48,051 bases of DNA from Sedimentisphaerales bacterium (GTDB lineage: Bacteria; Planctomycetota; Phycisphaerae; Sedimentisphaerales; Anaerobacaceae). The notes beneath the pieces are model-generated. The model was not told the origin of the DNA and made no database searches. It saw only the letters and a program-made list of their open reading frames with translations. Within the stretch, counting starts at the first letter, position 1; every line of letters begins with the position of its first letter. The translations under genes and the position numbers were made by a program. Positions 14,545-31,988 of the stretch are shown here, piece after piece. The stretch spans positions 1-48,051 of the forward strand of contig JAFGDN010000022.1 of assembly GCA_016932095.1 (NCBI GenBank), given 5' to 3'.

Positions 14545-14865
14545 TCAAGGCGTTATCGTAATACCTTCCCGTCGGGCAATTTCGAGAATCGGACGGCTCT
14601 CGTCGGTTTCCCACTCCTTTTCACCACACGGAATCGGCTCGATACGACTGTCTGTTTCCCTCGCCAGCCAAAGCGACTTAATAAGGGAAAAATCCCGCCT
14701 CCCGTCAAATTCCGGCGCTATGACAATCAGGTCAATATCGCTCCACTGTCCGGCCCGACCTGTCGCATAAGAACCAAAAAGAATCGCTTTACGCGCGTGA
14801 ATACCCATAGAAGGCAATGACGCAAGATATTGTTTTATAGCGCCGGCAATTGTGCTTTCAACCAT
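14545..14865 (-). CDS. Minimal nucleotidyltransferase (MNT) of a HEPN-MNT pair
   Basis: This 106-residue protein carries the nucleotidyltransferase motif GSYATGRAGQWSDIDLIVI: GS at 31-32 and D43/D45, two metal-binding aspartates. In HEPN-MNT toxin-antitoxin modules the MNT protein neutralises the HEPN RNase; some do so by AMP-modifying it. AAAGGAG lies 8 bases before its ATG, inside the HEPN gene. It overlaps the HEPN gene by 31 bases, the typical coupling of such pairs. Its stop (TGA) is followed at once by an in-frame ATG of the dGTPase-like gene. Confidence 0.88.
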   Translation of the reverse strand: MVESTIAGAIKQYLASLPSMGIHARKAILFGSYATGRAGQWSDIDLIVIAPEFDGRRDFSLIKSLWLARETDSRIEPIPCGEKEWETDESRPILEIARREGITITP

Positions 14866-15221
14866 TCCAGCATCTCCTTTGCTCTGAATAACTCCTTCTT
14901 AACAGAAACCTTGTCCAACAGCATTTGCTGGGAATCGGGATAACGTCCCTCAAGCTGGTAAACCCCAAATTCGAGCAAAAAATCTTTTTGCTCTTTGCTG
15001 AGATTCAAGCCGGTAATTTTTGAAAGACGGGCAAGGTCGTGTATGCGAGGGGGAATTTCCTTTGTCTTAACAACGACATGAGCTTTAAGTGCTTTTTCAA
15101 CAGCGAGGTGCGCAAAAAAAAGACAATGGCGTAAATGCCCTTTCCCCAATAATGATTGAGCCGCCGCAAAATCCTCCTCGGCCCCCGTCTTCCAGTAGTC
15201 AATTTGTTTCTGAATTACCAT
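14835..15221 (-). CDS. HEPN-domain protein, probable toxin of the HEPN-MNT pair
   Basis: The 128-residue all-helical protein shows the HEPN pattern: an opening helix DYWKTGAEEDFAAAQSLL, the core FFAHLAVEKALKAHVV, PRIHDLARL and a C-terminal EGRYPD. HEPN proteins of this kind act as RNases or RNA-binding toxins. The catalytic RX4-6H motif seen in many active HEPN RNases is not obvious at RYPDSQQ, so activity is uncertain. The gene starts 16 bases after the HIT gene stop and overlaps the MNT gene. Confidence 0.85.
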   Translation of the reverse strand: MVIQKQIDYWKTGAEEDFAAAQSLLGKGHLRHCLFFAHLAVEKALKAHVVVKTKEIPPRIHDLARLSKITGLNLSKEQKDFLLEFGVYQLEGRYPDSQQMLLDKVSVKKELFRAKEMLEWLKAQLPAL

Positions 15222-19872: not shown

Positions 19873-22800
19873 ATGGATGTGAACAGGGTAACGGATAACC
19901 GGGTATCAAACGAGCAGCAGGGAGAAAACAACGAGAAGTTTGTTCCCACGTGCACAATATGCGGGGAAAAGCACTGGCCGCACCACCCGCTTGTGCCCTG
20001 CTTCAACGCCAAAAAGGTAAAGGAAAGAGCAAAGCAGGAGGCAAAAGAAAAAGCGCTTGCGGACAAGCTCGCCAGAATCGAGGCCAAACGGCTGGCAAAA
20101 GAGCAGGCAAGGGAGGAGAAACTCGCAAGGATACAGGCAAAAGAGCAGGCAAAAGCGGATAAATACGCCTATCAGGCCGCTATAAAAAAAGCAGAAGAGA
20201 TTGCGCAGCGGGAAGCAAAGGCAAGGGCCGAGGCCGAAAGAATTGCCCAGGCCGAGACAAAGGCAAGGGTGGCCGCGGAAGAAAGAGCCAGGACCGAAAC
20301 AGAAGCCAGAGCCAAGGCCGAACAGCAGGCAAAAACAACCCTCGAAGAAAAAACACGCACTTTTCAGGAAGCTACCAGGCGGACCGAAAGCCGTTACCAG
20401 GCCGAAACAATCACGCGAAACCAATTACAAAAACAACTCGATACTCAAAACCAGATACTCAATGAATTACGCGAAACGCTCGATACGCAAACCCAGCAGC
20501 GAGAAACCGCCGAAGAACAGCTCCGGCAGGAAAAACAGGCCAGGCAGGACGCCGAATCAACCCTCGAAGAAAAGGTAAGTGAGTTCGGCAGGACATTGGA
20601 AGAAGTCAAATCACAGCTAAACACTCAGCAACTTGCGCTCGAGGAGGCATACGATAAGCTCAAACAATACAGTGAGAACCTGGCACAAACCGAATTACGA
20701 CTGAGGGATGAAGAGCAGGTCAGAAAAAAAACACAGGAAAAACTCGACAGGGAAATTCAGGCCAGAACCACCGCCCAAGAGCAGGCAAGATTCCAGCAAG
20801 AGCACCGGCTAAAGGCCGATGCGCTGGCCGAACAGGCGCAACAGCAAATTCAGGAGCAGACGCAGGCAAGAGTAAAGGCCGAGCAGCAGATGCGAGCCGA
20901 GCTGGAGGAAAAAGCGGTAACATACGGTCGGATAATTGCCTCACTTGAAGAAAAAGTGCGTTCGTCAGAAGAATCGCTTGCCGCCGCCCGCCAACAGTCG
21001 GCTACACAAACCGAAGCCGTTGAAGAGGCCCGGCAAAAACTCAAAGAGCAGACGGAAACAATTTCAGAATTAAAAAGCAAGGTCGAGACCCAGACAAGGA
21101 CAATAACCGAAATTCGGGAACGGCTGGATGCTCAGGCCGAGACGGTCAAATCAGCGAACCAGCAGGCACAAAGCGAAACTGCCCAGCGAGCAAAAGCCGA
21201 AGCTATGGCGCAAGCCGAACTCAACGCCAGGCGCGAGGCACAACAACAAATAGAGGTAGAAAAACAGTTGCGTCAGCAGGCCGAGGCGAAAATGCGGGCA
21301 GAGCTCGAAGAAAAGGCAAATCGCTACGGCCAGGCAATTGCACAGGCCGATGAACGACTAAACAATGCCATACGGACAAAAAAGCAGACAGAAGAAGAAT
21401 CTCAACTCCAGACACAAGCCCGGATCGAAGCAGAAAAGAGGGCTGAAAATCTCGCCGCGGCCCTCGAACAATTACGTCTGCAGTCAGACACGCAAACCGT
21501 GCGGCAAAAGGACATCGAGCAGCGGCTTCACGCCGAAACACAGGCCAAAATCGAAGCCCGGCAACAGGTAAAGGCGTTGACCGATAAGACGACCCAATTG
21601 AACCTGGCATTAACCCAAACCGAGAAAAACCTCGCCGAGTCATCAGAGAGGTTACAGCAGGAATCAAAAACTCGAATATCGGCCGAAGAAAAGGCACAAC
21701 GCCTCGTTGATGAGGCGGCCAACGCAACGGCACGGGCACAAGCCGAATTAAACGCCAGGCGCGAGGCACAACAGCAAATCGAAATTGAAAAGCAATTACG
21801 TCGGCAGGACCAGGAGAAAATGCGGGCCGAGCTTGAAGAAAAGGCAAATCGCTACGGCCAGGCAACTGCCCAGCTCGAAGAACGGCTAAAGAACGCCGTC
21901 GAAGCAAGGAAACACGCCGAGGATGAGCTGGACTTTCAAACGCAACTGCGCCTCGAAGAGGAAGAAAAGTCGCAAAACCTCACGAAAACCATCGAGCAAC
22001 TGCAAAATCAGCTAAAAATACATACAAAAGAGCAGGCGGAACTGCAAAATCGCGTGCAGAACGAAATCCAGAAACGAGCGGCGGCGGATGAAAGAGCGGG
22101 CCGGTTAAGTGAAGAGCTTGCCAAAGCGACGGCTACAACACAGGTCGAGCAAAAGGCAAGGATAGAAGCGGAAAACAAGGCACAGGAGTCGGCACAGGCA
22201 GCAATACAAATCGAAAGACAGATAAGAGCGGAGCTGGAGGAGAAAGCAAAAGGTTATGGCCAGTCAATCGCGAAGGCCGAAGGTAAAATCGTCTCGCTGA
22301 CCGACGCCCTCAGAGGCGCCGAAGAAAATCTAAACGCAGCGATAGAGTCAAAAAATATAGCCGAAAAGCAGGCAAAGGCAAACGACGAAATAGCCGCCGA
22401 GCTCGCCGAACGGCTTGGAGTTCAGACAAAGACAGCCGCTGCGCTCGAAGACAAGCTCAAAGAAGAGAATCAGGCAAGGTTGCACGCTGAAAAAACAGCA
22501 ACCGAACTCAATGAGGAAAAACAGCAGGCGTTGACCATAGCACAGGCAGAGGAAAAAGCAAAAGTCGAAGCACAACAGCAGGCCAGGCGCGAGGTCGAGA
22601 CAAGGGCCAAACTCGAGCAACGGTTCGAAGCGGTGATACAGGCGAAAATATCGGCGGAAAAACAGGCCGAGGAGCTTAATCAGGCCCGGCAGCTCGCCGA
22701 GAAAAACCTGCAAATCGAATCAGAAAATCGGGCACATGCCCAGGCGCAGGCGGCCGCAGCCGAAGAAGCCAGGGAAAGGGCAGAACAGTCGGCAAACCGG

Positions 22801-25800
22801 CAGGCACAGGCGCACGCCGAATTCGAGAAACAGATAACCGCCCAATTGGAAGAAAAGGCAAAAGTTTACTCCGGCGAAATCGCCTCGGCCCGGGAAAAAG
22901 CGAACTCATACGAGGCACAAATCGAACAGCTTCAAATACAAATCGAAGACCTGTCGCAGTCACGCACGAAACTGGCCGAACAATTATCGGCTGAGCAAAA
23001 CGCCAAAACAGAGTCAAACGAGAATATTCAAAAATTGTTGCAAAAACTTGACCATTTACAAGCCGAACTGTCGGCACAGACCACCGCCAAAGCACAGGCG
23101 GAAATGAAATTCAGCGAAGAAGTCGAGGCAAGGACAAAGGCGGAGCAAAAGGCCAACGAAGAATCGCAACAGCGTGCCAGGGCGGAAGCAATTGCCGAAG
23201 AGCAGTCAAAGATTGCCTCGCGGGCACAGGATGAAATCAGAACGCAGGCCCAAAACTGGCAAAAAGTCGAGCAGCAGATACAGGCCGAACTGGAGGAAAA
23301 GGCACAAATTTACGGCCAGACGCTCGCGAGGGCGGAAGAAAAAGCAAAGTCGCTCGCAGCAGCAAAACAAGAGGCAAACGATAAGCTCAATGAGGAGGTG
23401 CATCGCCGTTTGCAGGCAGAAGAGGCCGCAAAAGAATATCCGCAAAAGCTCACTGAACTGCAAAATCGTTTATTGACGCAGGAGCAGACAAAAATCGAGA
23501 CCGAACGGCGTTTGACCGAGGAGCAGGAAGCCAAAAGCCATCTCGAAGAACACGTATCACAGTACGCCGAGCGACTCAGTCAAGTAGAACAGGAACTCGC
23601 CACCGAAACAGCGGCCAGAATCAAAACTCAGGAGCAGTTAAAAGAGCAAATCGAGCAGCGACGGCTGGCAGAAGAAAAAGCTCAAGTGGAACTTGAGCAA
23701 AAGACCAGGGCACAGGCGCTTGCGCAGGCACAAACGCAATCCCTGATGCAGGCCGAAGAAAAGGCAGACCGCGAGGAGCAGGCAAAAATACAGGTCCTGG
23801 AACAGACCAGGGCCGAGATTGAGGAAAAAATCAGGTTTTACAGCCACGAGCTGGGCAAGACCCAGCAGCACGCCGAATCTCTCGAAAAGACGCTCAAGCA
23901 GGTCGAAGAAAAACTTTTGCAAAGTCAGTCGGCCAACGAGCAAACAGAACAGCAGATAAACCGCCTCACCGAACAGCTCGCCTCACTCGAGAACAAGCTC
24001 GATACACAGGAGGCGATTAACGCCCAACTGGAGGTCAACCTCGAAAACGAAACGCGGGTAAGAGCTGAAACACAGGAGCTTTTACAGCAGCAGGCGCAGC
24101 AAAAAGCCCGCGCAGAGGCAAGGCAGGAAATCGAGGCAAAGACCAGGGCCGAAGCCGAACAAAAAGCCAGAGAGGCAGTCGAATCGGCGGCACTGGCAAG
24201 ACAACAGGCGCAGAACCAATTCCAGCAGCAAATTGCGAATTTCACGGCGACACTATCGGATATACAATCACAGTTGAGCCGTGAAACCGCCATCAGAGCC
24301 GCCGCCGAACAGAAGATAAATTCCCAGGCCGAGACAATCGACCAGTACCTGCGTCAGGTAATATCGCTTGAACAGGATAAAGCCGCAATGGAACTGAATC
24401 TCAATGGGCTGAGAGACGCGTTCGTAAAAGCTCAAAGCGAATACGAGGCGGCAAACCTGGCCCGGCAACAGATGCAGGAGCGTCTTGAATCTGAAATTAA
24501 AACGCGAACAGACGCCCAGGAGAAGACCGACCTGCTCGCCGCCGAACTCGCAAAGGCACAGGGCAGGACCGAGGCCGAAGAAAGAGCAAGGCGTATTACC
24601 GAGGAAAAAGCCCGTGCCGAGGTCGAAACAAGAGAAAAACTCGAACAGCAGACAAGGAACCAATTAGAAGAAAAAGCAAAGGCGTACGGCCGGTCAATCG
24701 CGACCGCCCAGGAAAAGGCCAGATACTACGCCGAGGCCCTGACCGAAGCGAAGAATAAACTCGCCGAAAAAGACAAGGCAGTTGAACAAATCCACAGCAA
24801 CCTGAACACCGAAACCGAAAACCGGTTGCGCCTCGAACAACAGCTTGAAACCTACGTTAAGCAAATCGATAACCTCAGGCAGCAGCTTCGGGATGAAATA
24901 TCAGCAAGACAACAGATAGAATCGGAAACGAAAGCATTGGCCGAAGAAAACACCAGGACGCAAACCGAAGAAAAGAACCGCCTCGAACAGCAAATCGAAA
25001 CCTATAGACAGCAAACCGAGAAGCTTCAGCAGGACTTGCAGGCCGAAACGTCGGCAAGGCAACAACTCGAATCGGAAGCCAAAACGCTGGCTGAAACCGC
25101 CGTAAGAAATCACGCCGAAGAAAAAGGACGGCTCGAAAAGCAGTCGCAATCCCTGCTCAGCGAGCAGGCCAACGCCTACGAAGAGCAAATCGCGGAACTG
25201 GAAGAAAAACTGAAAATAGAACTGCAGGCAAAAGATAATCTGCAAAACCGGCTTGACCAGGAAGCCCAGGTTCGGATTTCGAACGAGCAAAAAACGAAAG
25301 AAGAATTACAGCAAAAGGTCGAGGCATACGAGCGGGTAATCAACGCCGCCGAACAACAGCTTAAAAACGAATCGCAGAAGGCATCACAGTTTGAGGAAAA
25401 GTTGAACGCTATACAGCAGGCCAGGGCCGACGCCGAACGAAAATTAGACGCTGAAACCGAGGCCAGAATATCGGCCCAGGAAAACATCAGGGCTTACGCC
25501 GACCGCCTGGCTGAGCTGGAAAAACAACAATCTCAGCTCGTCTCCGCAAAAACCGAGGTCGAACAAAAACTAATCACCGAGAGTGGAGCAAAGGAACAGA
25601 TTCAAAATCAACTGGACGTGCTGACCGCTAAAATAGTCGATACCGGGCAAAAACTGCAGCAGGAAACCATCGCAAGGAACGAAATCGAACAAAAACTGCG
25701 AGAGGAAGCCAGCGCCAGGAAAACCGCCGAGCAGAAACTCGAAGCCGAAATCCAGGCACGACTCAAAGTCGAGGAAGCATTGCAATCGCAAATGGAACCG

Positions 25801-25986
25801 GCTGCGGCCGTAAACGAACCCGCAGAATCATGGGAACAACCGTTGCCTTCCAAGAGCACAGAAATACCCCAAAAGAAGCTTGCCTGTGACTGTTGCGGCA
25901 GGGATGACTTTACCGAAGGACAACTTAAAAGGATTGATTCCGGCCACCTCTTCTGCCCTGATTGCCTCGCCGCGCTGAAAGGGTAA
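19873..25986 (+). CDS. Giant coiled-coil protein with zinc knuckles at both ends
   Basis: This 2,037-residue protein is unlike any named family I know. Residues 27-43 hold a Cys/His knuckle (C27, C30, H34, H37/H38, C43). Residues 2005-2031 hold a second one (C2005, C2008, C2028, C2031). Everything between is charged, Ala/Glu/Gln/Lys/Arg-rich heptad sequence almost without proline, glycine or aromatics: one long coiled coil. A motif of the form LEEKAxxYGxxIAxAEEK recurs near residues 156, 230, 341, 473, 650, 787, 990, 1138, 1314 and 1597. Its Tyr/Phe and Gly are nearly the only breaks. A continuous coil of about 1,950 residues would be near 290 nm long (inference at 0.15 nm per residue). There is no signal peptide, so it is probably cytoplasmic. 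The gene seems monocistronic, with only a weak ribosome site. Candidate roles: scaffold, cytoskeletal filament or tether. Confidence 0.85.
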   Translation: MDVNRVTDNRVSNEQQGENNEKFVPTCTICGEKHWPHHPLVPCFNAKKVKERAKQEAKEKALADKLARIEAKRLAKEQAREEKLARIQAKEQAKADKYAYQAAIKKAEEIAQREAKARAEAERIAQAETKARVAAEERARTETEARAKAEQQAKTTLEEKTRTFQEATRRTESRYQAETITRNQLQKQLDTQNQILNELRETLDTQTQQRETAEEQLRQEKQARQDAESTLEEKVSEFGRTLEEVKSQLNTQQLALEEAYDKLKQYSENLAQTELRLRDEEQVRKKTQEKLDREIQARTTAQEQARFQQEHRLKADALAEQAQQQIQEQTQARVKAEQQMRAELEEKAVTYGRIIASLEEKVRSSEESLAAARQQSATQTEAVEEARQKLKEQTETISELKSKVETQTRTITEIRERLDAQAETVKSANQQAQSETAQRAKAEAMAQAELNARREAQQQIEVEKQLRQQAEAKMRAELEEKANRYGQAIAQADERLNNAIRTKKQTEEESQLQTQARIEAEKRAENLAAALEQLRLQSDTQTVRQKDIEQRLHAETQAKIEARQQVKALTDKTTQLNLALTQTEKNLAESSERLQQESKTRISAEEKAQRLVDEAANATARAQAELNARREAQQQIEIEKQLRRQDQEKMRAELEEKANRYGQATAQLEERLKNAVEARKHAEDELDFQTQLRLEEEEKSQNLTKTIEQLQNQLKIHTKEQAELQNRVQNEIQKRAAADERAGRLSEELAKATATTQVEQKARIEAENKAQESAQAAIQIERQIRAELEEKAKGYGQSIAKAEGKIVSLTDALRGAEENLNAAIESKNIAEKQAKANDEIAAELAERLGVQTKTAAALEDKLKEENQARLHAEKTATELNEEKQQALTIAQAEEKAKVEAQQQARREVETRAKLEQRFEAVIQAKISAEKQAEELNQARQLAEKNLQIESENRAHAQAQAAAAEEARERAEQSANRQAQAHAEFEKQITAQLEEKAKVYSGEIASAREKANSYEAQIEQLQIQIEDLSQSRTKLAEQLSAEQNAKTESNENIQKLLQKLDHLQAELSAQTTAKAQAEMKFSEEVEARTKAEQKANEESQQRARAEAIAEEQSKIASRAQDEIRTQAQNWQKVEQQIQAELEEKAQIYGQTLARAEEKAKSLAAAKQEANDKLNEEVHRRLQAEEAAKEYPQKLTELQNRLLTQEQTKIETERRLTEEQEAKSHLEEHVSQYAERLSQVEQELATETAARIKTQEQLKEQIEQRRLAEEKAQVELEQKTRAQALAQAQTQSLMQAEEKADREEQAKIQVLEQTRAEIEEKIRFYSHELGKTQQHAESLEKTLKQVEEKLLQSQSANEQTEQQINRLTEQLASLENKLDTQEAINAQLEVNLENETRVRAETQELLQQQAQQKARAEARQEIEAKTRAEAEQKAREAVESAALARQQAQNQFQQQIANFTATLSDIQSQLSRETAIRAAAEQKINSQAETIDQYLRQVISLEQDKAAMELNLNGLRDAFVKAQSEYEAANLARQQMQERLESEIKTRTDAQEKTDLLAAELAKAQGRTEAEERARRITEEKARAEVETREKLEQQTRNQLEEKAKAYGRSIATAQEKARYYAEALTEAKNKLAEKDKAVEQIHSNLNTETENRLRLEQQLETYVKQIDNLRQQLRDEISARQQIESETKALAEENTRTQTEEKNRLEQQIETYRQQTEKLQQDLQAETSARQQLESEAKTLAETAVRNHAEEKGRLEKQSQSLLSEQANAYEEQIAELEEKLKIELQAKDNLQNRLDQEAQVRISNEQKTKEELQQKVEAYERVINAAEQQLKNESQKASQFEEKLNAIQQARADAERKLDAETEARISAQENIRAYADRLAELEKQQSQLVSAKTEVEQKLITESGAKEQIQNQLDVLTAKIVDTGQKLQQETIARNEIEQKLREEASARKTAEQKLEAEIQARLKVEEALQSQMEPAAAVNEPAESWEQPLPSKSTEIPQKKLACDCCGRDDFTEGQLKRIDSGHLFCPDCLAALKG
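21208..21871 (+). repeat. Near-identical 130-bp repeat inside the coiled-coil gene, offset 528 bp
   Basis: The stretch beginning about 21211 (coding QAELNARREAQQQIE and ending near 21341 at NRYGQAIAQ) recurs beginning about 21739 with few base changes. The offset is 528 bp, exactly 176 codons. It marks a recent internal duplication by which the coil was lengthened in whole codons. Confidence 0.7.
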
Positions 25987-27697: not shown

Positions 27698-28357
27698 TCA
27701 GAACATCTGCTTGCGTCTCATCCAGCCGACTAACGCTGCTCCGATACCGACCATCAATACTGCCCCCGGGGCTGGAACGACGATTTGAACGAGTTGGTCC
27801 TGGCATAGCCTCCCGTTCTGGTAAAGATTTATAATTCGAACGCTGCCTATATCCGTCCAGCCGCAGCCAAGAGCGGCCTGGTAGAATTTGTCCTGCAGCG
27901 AATTATCGCCATCAACCCAGTTTTTACCTCGTTCGCCTTCGATAAACCATATTACATTCTGAAGCGCACCGGCGGAAGCGCTGCGCCCCGCGCCCGGCGT
28001 ATAGTTATACCCAAGAGCGGCTAACCCGCCATCAATAAATGCGTCGTAAAGAAACGCGGTTTTGGGGTCAAGCGGGTCGCCGGAAGAACCCACGCCCCCA
28101 TTTATTGCCTTATTGTTAATAACTACATCATAAGTATGATTAAGGTATATATACTCATTATATTCAAGACAGAACGTCTGAACAGTAGCGCCATCAATAA
28201 GGCCGGGAACACCACTTGGAATCGCTGTAAACTCACCACCTACACCACTGTAATAACCGCTTTGTCGGGTCATAGTAACCGTTGGCCCTGCCATTAGCGG
28301 ACAGGCAATTATTCCAAATGATATGATTATAATGAAACTTTTTGCTTCTCTATACAT
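27698..28357 (-). CDS. Exported protein with a PEP-CTERM-like sorting tail
   Basis: The 219-residue protein has a signal peptide (MYREAKSFIIIISFGIIACPLMAG) and a C-terminal sorting signal. The tail is VPAPGAVLMVGIGAALVG followed by the basic end WMRRKQMF. The latter has the PEP-CTERM layout with the PAPGA variant common in planctomycetes, recognised by an exosortase that is not in this window. The body is Gly/Asn-rich with two or three cysteines and a TFCLEYNEYI stretch. The ATG at 28357 follows AAAGGAG by 4 bases, better than the longer frame from 28399. It is a single-gene unit with promoter and terminator. Confidence 0.85.
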   Translation of the reverse strand: MYREAKSFIIIISFGIIACPLMAGPTVTMTRQSGYYSGVGGEFTAIPSGVPGLIDGATVQTFCLEYNEYIYLNHTYDVVINNKAINGGVGSSGDPLDPKTAFLYDAFIDGGLAALGYNYTPGAGRSASAGALQNVIWFIEGERGKNWVDGDNSLQDKFYQAALGCGWTDIGSVRIINLYQNGRLCQDQLVQIVVPAPGAVLMVGIGAALVGWMRRKQMF

Positions 28358-28461
28358 ATTGCTCCTTTCAGTCAAAATCAATGATTTGGTAAAAATCATC
28401 CTTAGTTACAAAGGCGACCTGCTTTAACCGCCTTGAGTGCCCTATTTCCCCAAGTTTATCT

Positions 28462-28711: not shown

Positions 28712-29644
28712 CTATATATACTCAACCGTCGCGGGCGGTTTTGGGGTTAAATCGTAAAGGCAGCGATTGACGCCCTTTATCTCCGTAATTCGCCTGCAAA
28801 TACGTTCCAGCTTTTCCCACGGCAGCCGAGTTGCAGTAGCCACGCGCGCGTCGATGCTTTCAATGCAGCGAACGACTATAATCTGGCCGAATTCCCGCTT
28901 GTTGTTTCTGATGCCGGTTGCGTAATCGTTAAGCAGGACGGCCAAATACTGAAATGAGTCGCTATCGGCCAGCTCTTCCTCAACTATTGCCGTTGCAGCC
29001 CGGACGGTTTCGAGACGCTCCTCAGTTACCTCGCCGACGATTCTTGCGGCCAGCGCCGGCCCCGGGAACGGTATTCTCTGCGAAATTTCCTTCGGTATGC
29101 CAAGCAGCTCAGCGACTTTTCGAACATCGTCTTTCCGCAGGGTCTTCAACGGCTCAATTACCTTGTAGCCGTATGATTTCTCGGTGTCGATGCCCAATTG
29201 AGTAAGGATATTGTGCTGACGCTTGATGCCGGCCACTGTTTCCTCGATGTCGGTCAGGATTGTGCCGTGCATCAGAAATTGCGCCCCTGATTCCTTAACA
29301 AGCCGGCTGAAAACCTTCGAATAAAAAGTATCTGTTATTGCCTGCCGTTTTTCTTCAGGGTCGGTCAGCCCCCTGAGCGCCGTGAGAAATTCCTTTCGCG
29401 AATTAACCAGCTCAACGGGTATTCCCATATCTGAGAAGATTTTGACAACTCGCTTCGGCTCACCTTCGCGCATAAGGGCGTTGTCGATAAATATGGTTTT
29501 AAGCTGATTACCGATAGCGCGGTGAGCCAGCACTGTAACCGTCGAGCTGTCAACTCCCCCGCTCAAGGCGTTTATCGCTTTGCCATTTCCTACGACTTTT
29601 TTGATTTCCGCAATCTGCTCCTCAATGAAGCGATTGTAATCCAT
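28712..29644 (-). CDS. guaAb: GMP synthase ATP-pyrophosphatase subunit (stand-alone)
   Basis: The 310-residue protein is the synthetase half of GMP synthase, converting XMP to GMP with ATP and ammonia. It has the PP-loop ALSGGVDSSTV near residue 25, GTILTDI, RIPFPGPALAARI and the C-terminal NRCLYDLTPKPPATVEY. No glutamine amidotransferase domain is fused at the N-terminus. This is the split form best known from archaea, so the GATase partner must be encoded elsewhere. The ATG follows AAAGGAT by 6 bases. tRNA-Cys lies 63 bases upstream on the same strand and may share its transcript. Confidence 0.9.
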   Translation of the reverse strand: MDYNRFIEEQIAEIKKVVGNGKAINALSGGVDSSTVTVLAHRAIGNQLKTIFIDNALMREGEPKRVVKIFSDMGIPVELVNSRKEFLTALRGLTDPEEKRQAITDTFYSKVFSRLVKESGAQFLMHGTILTDIEETVAGIKRQHNILTQLGIDTEKSYGYKVIEPLKTLRKDDVRKVAELLGIPKEISQRIPFPGPALAARIVGEVTEERLETVRAATAIVEEELADSDSFQYLAVLLNDYATGIRNNKREFGQIIVVRCIESIDARVATATRLPWEKLERICRRITEIKGVNRCLYDLTPKPPATVEYI

Positions 29645-31175: not shown

Positions 31176-31988
31176 ATGAAGAAGGAAATTTGTTTTTTCG
31201 TGATTATAATGTCTTGCCTGATTGGCATCTCTGCAATTACCACAACCGGGTCAACCACTACAAGCGGAACAACAACTACTGCCATCGCAACGACAACCAG
31301 CATACCACCCGGCGGGGGAAGCACTACATCTATAACAACAACGACTACCACTGCGTCCGCGGCGAAGGTGGAAATTCTCGGCGGCGGTTTCAGCAATGGT
31401 CTGTGGCATCCCGTGCCGCAATTACCCGCCGTCAATCGCGCACTGGTTTTTATCGCTTTTGCCGAACGCTCCGGACCCACGACTTTAAATTCCGTGACGT
31501 ACGGCGGCCGGCCGATGACAAAAATCATCCAGCGCAACGTCGGCACCACATACGCACAAAACTATGTCGCGGCATTTATCCTCAATGACGCAGGCATAGC
31601 GGCGGCAACGGATGACCACTTCGCCGTATCGTGGAGCGGCGTGCCGAGTGAAGTTGAGTACGGACACGTATTTCTTCAGAACGTAAATCAATCGGTTCTT
31701 ACCGGTGCAAAGGCCAGCAGGGCCACGGCGACAGGATTTCCCAATCCGATTACGACTTCCGCCCTTTTTACGTGCAACGGAGATATGGTATTCGCCGCGG
31801 CTGAATGTGGGAACAGTGGAATATACACGATGAATAACGGCTTTAGCAGATGGTTTGCATATCGGCTGACATCGTCATCCGGTGCAGTCGGTATCAAATC
31901 CGCAACTGGCGCAAAAGAGACGCCAAGCGCCACCTTCTCGGGCACTTTGAGCCGTCAGGCGATTATCGGTTTTGTTGTTCGTCACTAA
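31176..31988 (+). CDS. Secreted Thr-rich protein of unknown function
   Basis: The 270-residue protein has a signal peptide (MKKEICFFVIIMSCLIGISA). A low-complexity Thr/Ser/Gly/Pro linker follows (about residues 21-62), like a glycosylated mucin-type spacer. A C-terminal beta-rich domain of about 200 residues ends in IGFVVRH. The domain has hydrophobic alternation (RALVFIAFAERS, LNSVTYGGRPMT) typical of a jelly-roll or carbohydrate-binding fold, but no family is recognised. GAGGT lies 10 bases before the ATG, and a terminator follows within 30 bases, so it is a single-gene unit. Confidence 0.8.
   Translation: MKKEICFFVIIMSCLIGISAITTTGSTTTSGTTTTAIATTTSIPPGGGSTTSITTTTTTASAAKVEILGGGFSNGLWHPVPQLPAVNRALVFIAFAERSGPTTLNSVTYGGRPMTKIIQRNVGTTYAQNYVAAFILNDAGIAAATDDHFAVSWSGVPSEVEYGHVFLQNVNQSVLTGAKASRATATGFPNPITTSALFTCNGDMVFAAAECGNSGIYTMNNGFSRWFAYRLTSSSGAVGIKSATGAKETPSATFSGTLSRQAIIGFVVRH

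Follow-up and report, generated by a model that had tools for sequence, protein, structure and literature searches.

The coil gene and its product

The window, i.e., the whole stretch of 48,051 nucleotides that was analysed, carries on its forward strand a gene for a giant protein made up of a long coiled coil with a small cysteine/histidine cluster at either tip (Table 1). The start ATG lies at the same place in the homologues of the genus, and a homologue search recovered ORFs carrying both ends in the same genus and beyond it. The 2,037-residue ORF is a genuine protein with homologues under purifying selection: four pairs of relatives gave dN/dS values of 0.19, 0.17, 0.34, and 0.21 over their aligned codons. 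The composition is dominated by a few residues (E 16.7, A 15.5, Q 13.6, L 8.6, K 8.3, and R 7.7%), and between the tips the sequence consists almost entirely of E, A, Q, L, K, R, and T. As the eight cysteines of the whole protein are confined to positions 27, 30, and 43 and to positions 2005, 2007, 2008, 2028, and 2031, there is one Cys/His cluster per end. No TM-like segment was found (maximum 19-residue hydropathy 0.54), and a Walker A motif was absent from every family member checked.

A promoter scan of the 219-bp gap upstream of the coil gene gave no promoter-like match, and in a terminator scan the matches were no better than chance. The neighbours of the gene are not conserved beyond close relatives; an operon with ilvD was considered and rejected, as its conservation is limited to the genus. 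Immediately upstream, four relatives of the gene share an ORF of about 160–245 aa that is encoded on the other strand and runs divergently from the gene.

Table 1. Features of the coil gene in the window (nucleotide positions of the window; residues of the encoded protein).
Feature	Position	Strand	Basis or remark
Whole coding sequence, 2,037-aa giant coiled-coil protein	19873..25986	+	ATG start, without internal stop
N-finger, residues 27-43, C-x2-C-x3-H-x8-C, CTICGEKHWPHHPLVPC	19951..20001	+	Conserved in alignment
Basic start of helix, residues 44-83, net +6 here	20002..20121	+	AF2 helix from residue 46
Rod of coiled coil (residues 46-1975), one coherent period of 3.52 residues, ~287 nm if straight	20008..25797	+	
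LEEKxxxYG array, starts at residues 157 (degenerate), 231, 344, 478, 654, 788, 992, 1140, 1316, 1598	20341..24702	+	
265-nt direct repeat, copy 1	21207..21471	+	
265-nt direct repeat, copy 2	21735..21999	+	
P1190, sole proline inside the rod, possible kink	23440..23442	+	
Proline-containing flexible linker, residues 1976-2004	25798..25884	+	AF2 pLDDT
Predicted treble-clef finger, residues 2005-2037, C-x2-C-x19-C-x2-C and short helix	25885..25983	+	

Continuity and periodicity of the coil

The coiled coil is the dominant part of the protein, with about 1,930 of the 2,037 residues. Residues 43-1189 and 1191-1975 form two proline-free stretches, and prolines are near-absent in all finger-to-finger members of the family. 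Across 1,929 residues the hydrophobic positions follow a single-phase period of 3.521 residues per turn with a power of 67.0, compared to a mean of 17.5 and a maximum of 39.4 in 300 controls in which the local heptads were kept and the register was scrambled between blocks of 70 residues. The 28 blocks of the rod were phase-locked at 0.80, against 0.19 expected at random. In five other members the period peaked at 3.517-3.535, and four of them exceeded all of their own controls, the fifth falling below its best register-scrambled control (28.9 vs 30.8). A period just over 3.5 corresponds to heptads with occasional register shifts. AF2 monomer models of both ends showed an uninterrupted helix at residues 46-131 and at about 1889-1980.

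A preliminary description of this DNA, made from its letters and ORF translations, had proposed a continuous Ala/Glu/Gln-rich coil of near 290 nm. The composition, the near-absence of proline, and the single coherent period bear out the continuous coil, and 287 nm was computed for residues 46-1975 as a straight helix. Instead of a fold with many breaks, the AF2 end models, the whole-rod periodicity, and the proline-free stretches point to an unbroken one. The ten copies of a YG motif in the same description were a fair count, consisting of nine strict copies and the degenerate one at residue 157.

The nine matches to [LI]E[EQ]K...[YF][GS] compare with 0.0015 expected in shuffled sequences. The motif tyrosine occupies a heptad core position, where a regular Leu-rich heptad zone begins, and the spacing from motif to motif is mostly 14k+8 residues, which equals 1 modulo 7. 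If each motif repeat moves the register by about +1 residue, the excess over 3.5 would be roughly explained. The regular array is mainly a feature of the genus and not of the whole family. At the DNA level, the two 265-nt repeat copies are 73% identical and spaced by 528 nt, or 176 codons; Tandem Repeats Finder did not find an array.

Two unlike ends

The N end appears to be a CCHC knuckle-like, predicted zinc-binding finger, behind which a strongly basic helix begins. In 24 aligned rows the residues F23, P25, C27, C30, G31, K33, H34, W35, P36, C43, and N45 were invariant. CBS-type paralogues retain only C, C, H, and C, and these four are therefore the likely ligands. In those finger-to-finger members that were measured, the net charge of the 40 residues behind the N-finger lay between +4 and +15, whereas most rods average about -1 per 40 residues. 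Identity with the retroviral-type knuckle (zf-CCHC) was rejected, as that type needs C-x2-C-x4-H-x4-C instead of the spacing found here, and the N-finger had no Pfam match. A Foldseek search with the N-end model did not find a fold match.

At the C end, the finger (ACDCCGRDDFTEGQLKRIDSGHLFCPDCL) contains five Cys and one His in total and follows a linker in which AF2 pLDDT fell below 50 (model residues 94-110, i.e., residues 1981-1997). The AF2 model of the finger comprises short strands and a C-terminal helix (142-149) that starts from the last CxxC, with pLDDT of about 91. A CxxC knuckle, a beta hairpin, and a CxxC at the helix start, the marks of a treble clef, are all present in this model. 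It aligned structurally with HOIP RING1 (0.9-1.0 Å over 34-36 residues), FYVE (1.8-2.1 Å over 40 residues), and AreA/GATA (1.8 Å over 33 residues), which indicates the fold class alone because the Z-scores of the finger rows were under 4.5. On this model, the C-terminal cluster is a predicted zinc-binding treble clef and not a knuckle.

The sub-threshold Pfam matches of the C-finger to UPF0167 (E 0.0018) and to the TRAF RING (E 0.017) were taken as generic Cys4 similarity. Run against the sequences of the PDB, the profiles of the two fingers gave nothing under E 0.03, and in PHROGs the C-finger had a single weak match (E 0.0017) to a family for which the function is not known.

The Cys/His cluster that had been noticed at each end is thus real, all eight cysteines lying at the two tips and both fingers being conserved in the family, and such conserved ends are consistent with the docking that had been suggested for them. 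Of the "zinc knuckles at both ends", the N-terminal one holds as knuckle-like CCHC; the C-terminal one has to be replaced by the predicted treble clef. Overall, the observation in the preliminary description was confirmed and its interpretation partly supported; the recurrence of both end modules on other proteins and the basic block behind the N-finger, present throughout the finger-to-finger family, had gone unnoticed in it.

Distribution and length variation

The rod protein typifies a previously undescribed protein family of Sedimentisphaerales/Phycisphaerae, one group of planctomycetes. A profile of the N-terminal region matched in 28 of the 89 genomes of the same taxonomic family. Elsewhere in the order it matched in a single genome, from a different family, and among 392 evenly sampled genomes of the phylum only the window's own genome gave a match. 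The relatives with names belong to Phycisphaerales/Sedimentisphaerales and other planctomycete MAGs, in agreement with the planctomycete origin proposed earlier. Because it is absent from 61 of the 89 genomes of the family (some of them incomplete), the gene is accessory. Pfam gave no family match to the rod protein, and no NCBIfam model scored above its cut-off, the one to SMC being a match of generic coil that stayed far under it; this supports the earlier view of the protein as unlike known bacterial coil families.

Sixteen complete finger-to-finger members, counted stop to stop, measured 759-2,860 residues, and both fingers were present in all 16; the other members are truncated at the end of a contig or by a gap. 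The coil between the fingers ranged from about 694 to 2,749 residues, i.e., fourfold, which does not support about 290 nm as a fixed span. As the ends are conserved in every complete member and the coil is variable, selection acts on the two ends and a helical connector. Alignments of the coil below about 60% identity are unreliable, since the E/A/Q/K coil is of low complexity. In pairs of relatives with at least 60% identity, indels tended to comprise complete turns of the helix (n = 23, R 0.48, mean phase 0.04; p about 0.005 by jitter, the pairs not being independent).

A phage origin was rejected, as N-finger relatives were not found in viral contigs. The lone C-finger match in viral contigs was not counted; that protein holds several other Cys clusters.

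End modules on other proteins

A profile search found the C-finger in 47 of the 89 genomes of the family. It often ends short proteins that start with an LPGxLYQKNxRWWWKVKLPGE... domain followed by a short coil. The same domain begins tyrosine recombinases of about 440-470 residues (Phage_integrase E 1e-21); because of this N-terminal position it is taken as an arm-type domain, which would bind DNA. Proteins with an arm domain, a short coil, and the C-finger constitute a second undescribed family. Ten such proteins lack the recombinase catalytic domain. In another protein, a tyrosine recombinase catalytic domain (E 1.6e-25) ends in the C-finger. Two CHAD proteins carry the C-finger as well, L129 (Pfam, E 4.9e-51) and L133 (by eye), and so does a protein with a membrane segment predicted by eye. 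L133 has an arm domain besides CHAD and C-finger.

The N-finger also occurs elsewhere: three proteins consist of one or two N-fingers, an Ala/Lys-rich coil, and a terminal CBS pair. Two of them, from different genera, have the same two neighbours, which resemble DNA polymerase III delta and gyrA, both names being read from sequence and not via a family search. The plan shared by these proteins is head-coil-tail with exchangeable ends.

Comparison with known systems

In a survey of 2005, a continuous predicted coil of more than 400 residues was absent from the bacterial proteomes analysed, and SMC-type proteins were named as those with the longest prokaryotic coils (PMC1322226). Long coils are found in SMC, Rad50, and MukB, and the rod protein gave a weak NCBIfam SMC match (E 2.4e-6). 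SMC homology was rejected: the match scored 25.6 bits where the cut-off is 567, and the protein has no Walker A, head, or hinge, leaving a similarity of coil composition only.

The closest layout is that of the EEA1/golgin tethers, with an N-end zinc finger, a very long dimeric coil (~200 nm), and a C-end zinc domain of the treble-clef class, giving two sticky ends (PMC8491906). The order finger, long continuous coil, treble clef of EEA1 recurs in the planctomycete rod. However, no sequence homology between EEA1 and the rod protein was found, and the likeness is an analogy of layout. The N-finger is CCHC in the rod and C2H2 in EEA1; the C-finger has no HHCR and a single predicted zinc site, unlike the FYVE signature (R-R/K-HHCR) with its eight-ligand two-zinc site. 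The setting differs too, as the rod is bacterial, without Rab, PI3P, or endosome.

Among bacterial proteins, HMW2 of Mycoplasma pneumoniae, the ruler of the attachment organelle, is likewise a giant cytoplasmic coil (1,818 residues) whose length sets a physical distance (PMC8191905). HMW2 differs in that its coil is predicted in 11 segments over 1,257 residues and in its unrelated lineage; zinc fingers are not mentioned in the text consulted. By analogy with HMW2, the rod might serve as a ruler; it is homologous to neither HMW2 nor EEA1. Crescentin, FilP, and Scy, which are coiled-coil-rich or intermediate-filament-like, are also mostly coiled coil without an enzymatic domain (PMC10873595, PMC6599971, PMC7002697). 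A survey of coiled-coil-rich proteins lists cyanobacterial candidates of about 280-650 aa, and zinc is not mentioned in its text.

The C-finger resembles the dimeric bacterial treble clefs of CsfB and the ClpX N-terminal zinc domain in being a small Cys4 clef with similar spacing, and a ClpX model was among the weak Foldseek rows; unlike ClpX, it sits at the tip of a rod. The zf-C4_ClpX family was not among the Pfam matches listed for the C-finger at E up to 10, HMMER filters dropping most weak matches.

Proposed function and alternatives

The reading we favour, to which we give about an even chance, is a cytoplasmic two-ended rod serving as a tether or spacer. The chain would wind into a single long coiled coil, left-handed and of the heptad type, most likely as a parallel dimer. 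Its N end, with the CCHC finger and the short basic helix, would be a capture head, most plausibly for nucleic acid, as finger type, basicity, and parallel architecture suggest. The C end, a treble clef on a flexible linker, may be a shared docking plug for partner recognition or self-association. The rod between them would set the distance, and the in-register gain and loss of repeats seen in the indels could be used to tune its length. The occurrence of head-coil-C-finger proteins with other heads (the arm domain) and of N-finger/CBS proteins suggests a module logic that favours a two-ended tether.

A more specific form of such a tether, a chromosome organiser whose N end binds DNA and whose rod bridges or spaces DNA or anchors it via the C-finger, is possible but we would not bet on it. 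The A/K-rich basic helix behind the CCHC finger, the co-occurrence of the C-finger with putatively DNA-binding arm domains and a tyrosine recombinase, and the CBS variant that in two genomes, each from a different genus, adjoins gyrA and a gene resembling DNA polymerase III delta would fit it; the C-finger, however, is not DNA-specific, since it is also found on CHAD proteins and a membrane protein. Somewhat less probable still is a self-assembling cytoskeletal filament or scaffold, comparable to crescentin, FilP, Scy, or the HMW2 core, in which rods bundle laterally or end to end via the fingers. The fourfold difference in length among relatives speaks against it, and conserved, chemically unlike fingers at the two ends exceed what such filament proteins need, although the very high coiled-coil content, the long unbroken rod, and the homodimerisation possible for treble-clef fingers (CsfB, ClpX NTD; PMC5890618) agree with a filament, and HMW2 shows that a giant bacterial coil can serve as a length ruler (PMC8191905). 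That the ORF is an expanding low-complexity sequence, its coil driven by repeat expansion with little function beyond the ends, is very improbable and already disfavoured. Internal DNA repeats, the fourfold length range, and the patchy presence would be expected from it, but purifying selection acts on the codons of the coil (dN/dS 0.17-0.34), the helical phase is coherent along the whole rod, prolines are near-absent in all finger-to-finger members, and the ends are near-invariant.

Extending the two-ended tether beyond this protein, we speculate, with considerable doubt, that there is a bacterial class of EEA1/golgin-like two-ended tethers of roughly 100-400 nm, assembled from interchangeable parts on a head-coil-plug plan in which an N-finger, an integrase arm, or a CHAD part is at the front and a C-finger or a CBS pair at the rear. 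Such rods would connect the nucleoid of planctomycetes, or some other structure, with one C-finger receptor common to them, and would do so at defined distances. Planctomycete cell compartments and the condensed nucleoid are themselves debated (PMC5394234, PMC3440768). Unbroken rods of about 700-2,750 residues with conserved fingers and exchangeable ends would be a bacterial counterpart of the eukaryotic long-range tethers, and the two small finger modules, now defined, are directly searchable and testable.

Other genes in the window

Several further ORFs were noted on the reverse strand. Two adjoining ORFs of 128 and 106 aa (14545-15221) resemble a HEPN/MNT nucleotidyltransferase toxin-antitoxin pair. 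A 233-aa secreted-looking protein (27698-28399) has a PEP-CTERM-like tail (VPAPGAVLMVGIGAALVGWMRRKQ), and a 310-aa ORF (28712-29644) corresponds to the ATPase/C-terminal part of GMP synthase, standing separately without the amidotransferase domain. On the forward strand, positions 31176-31988 encode a mucin-like secreted protein rich in Thr/Ser.
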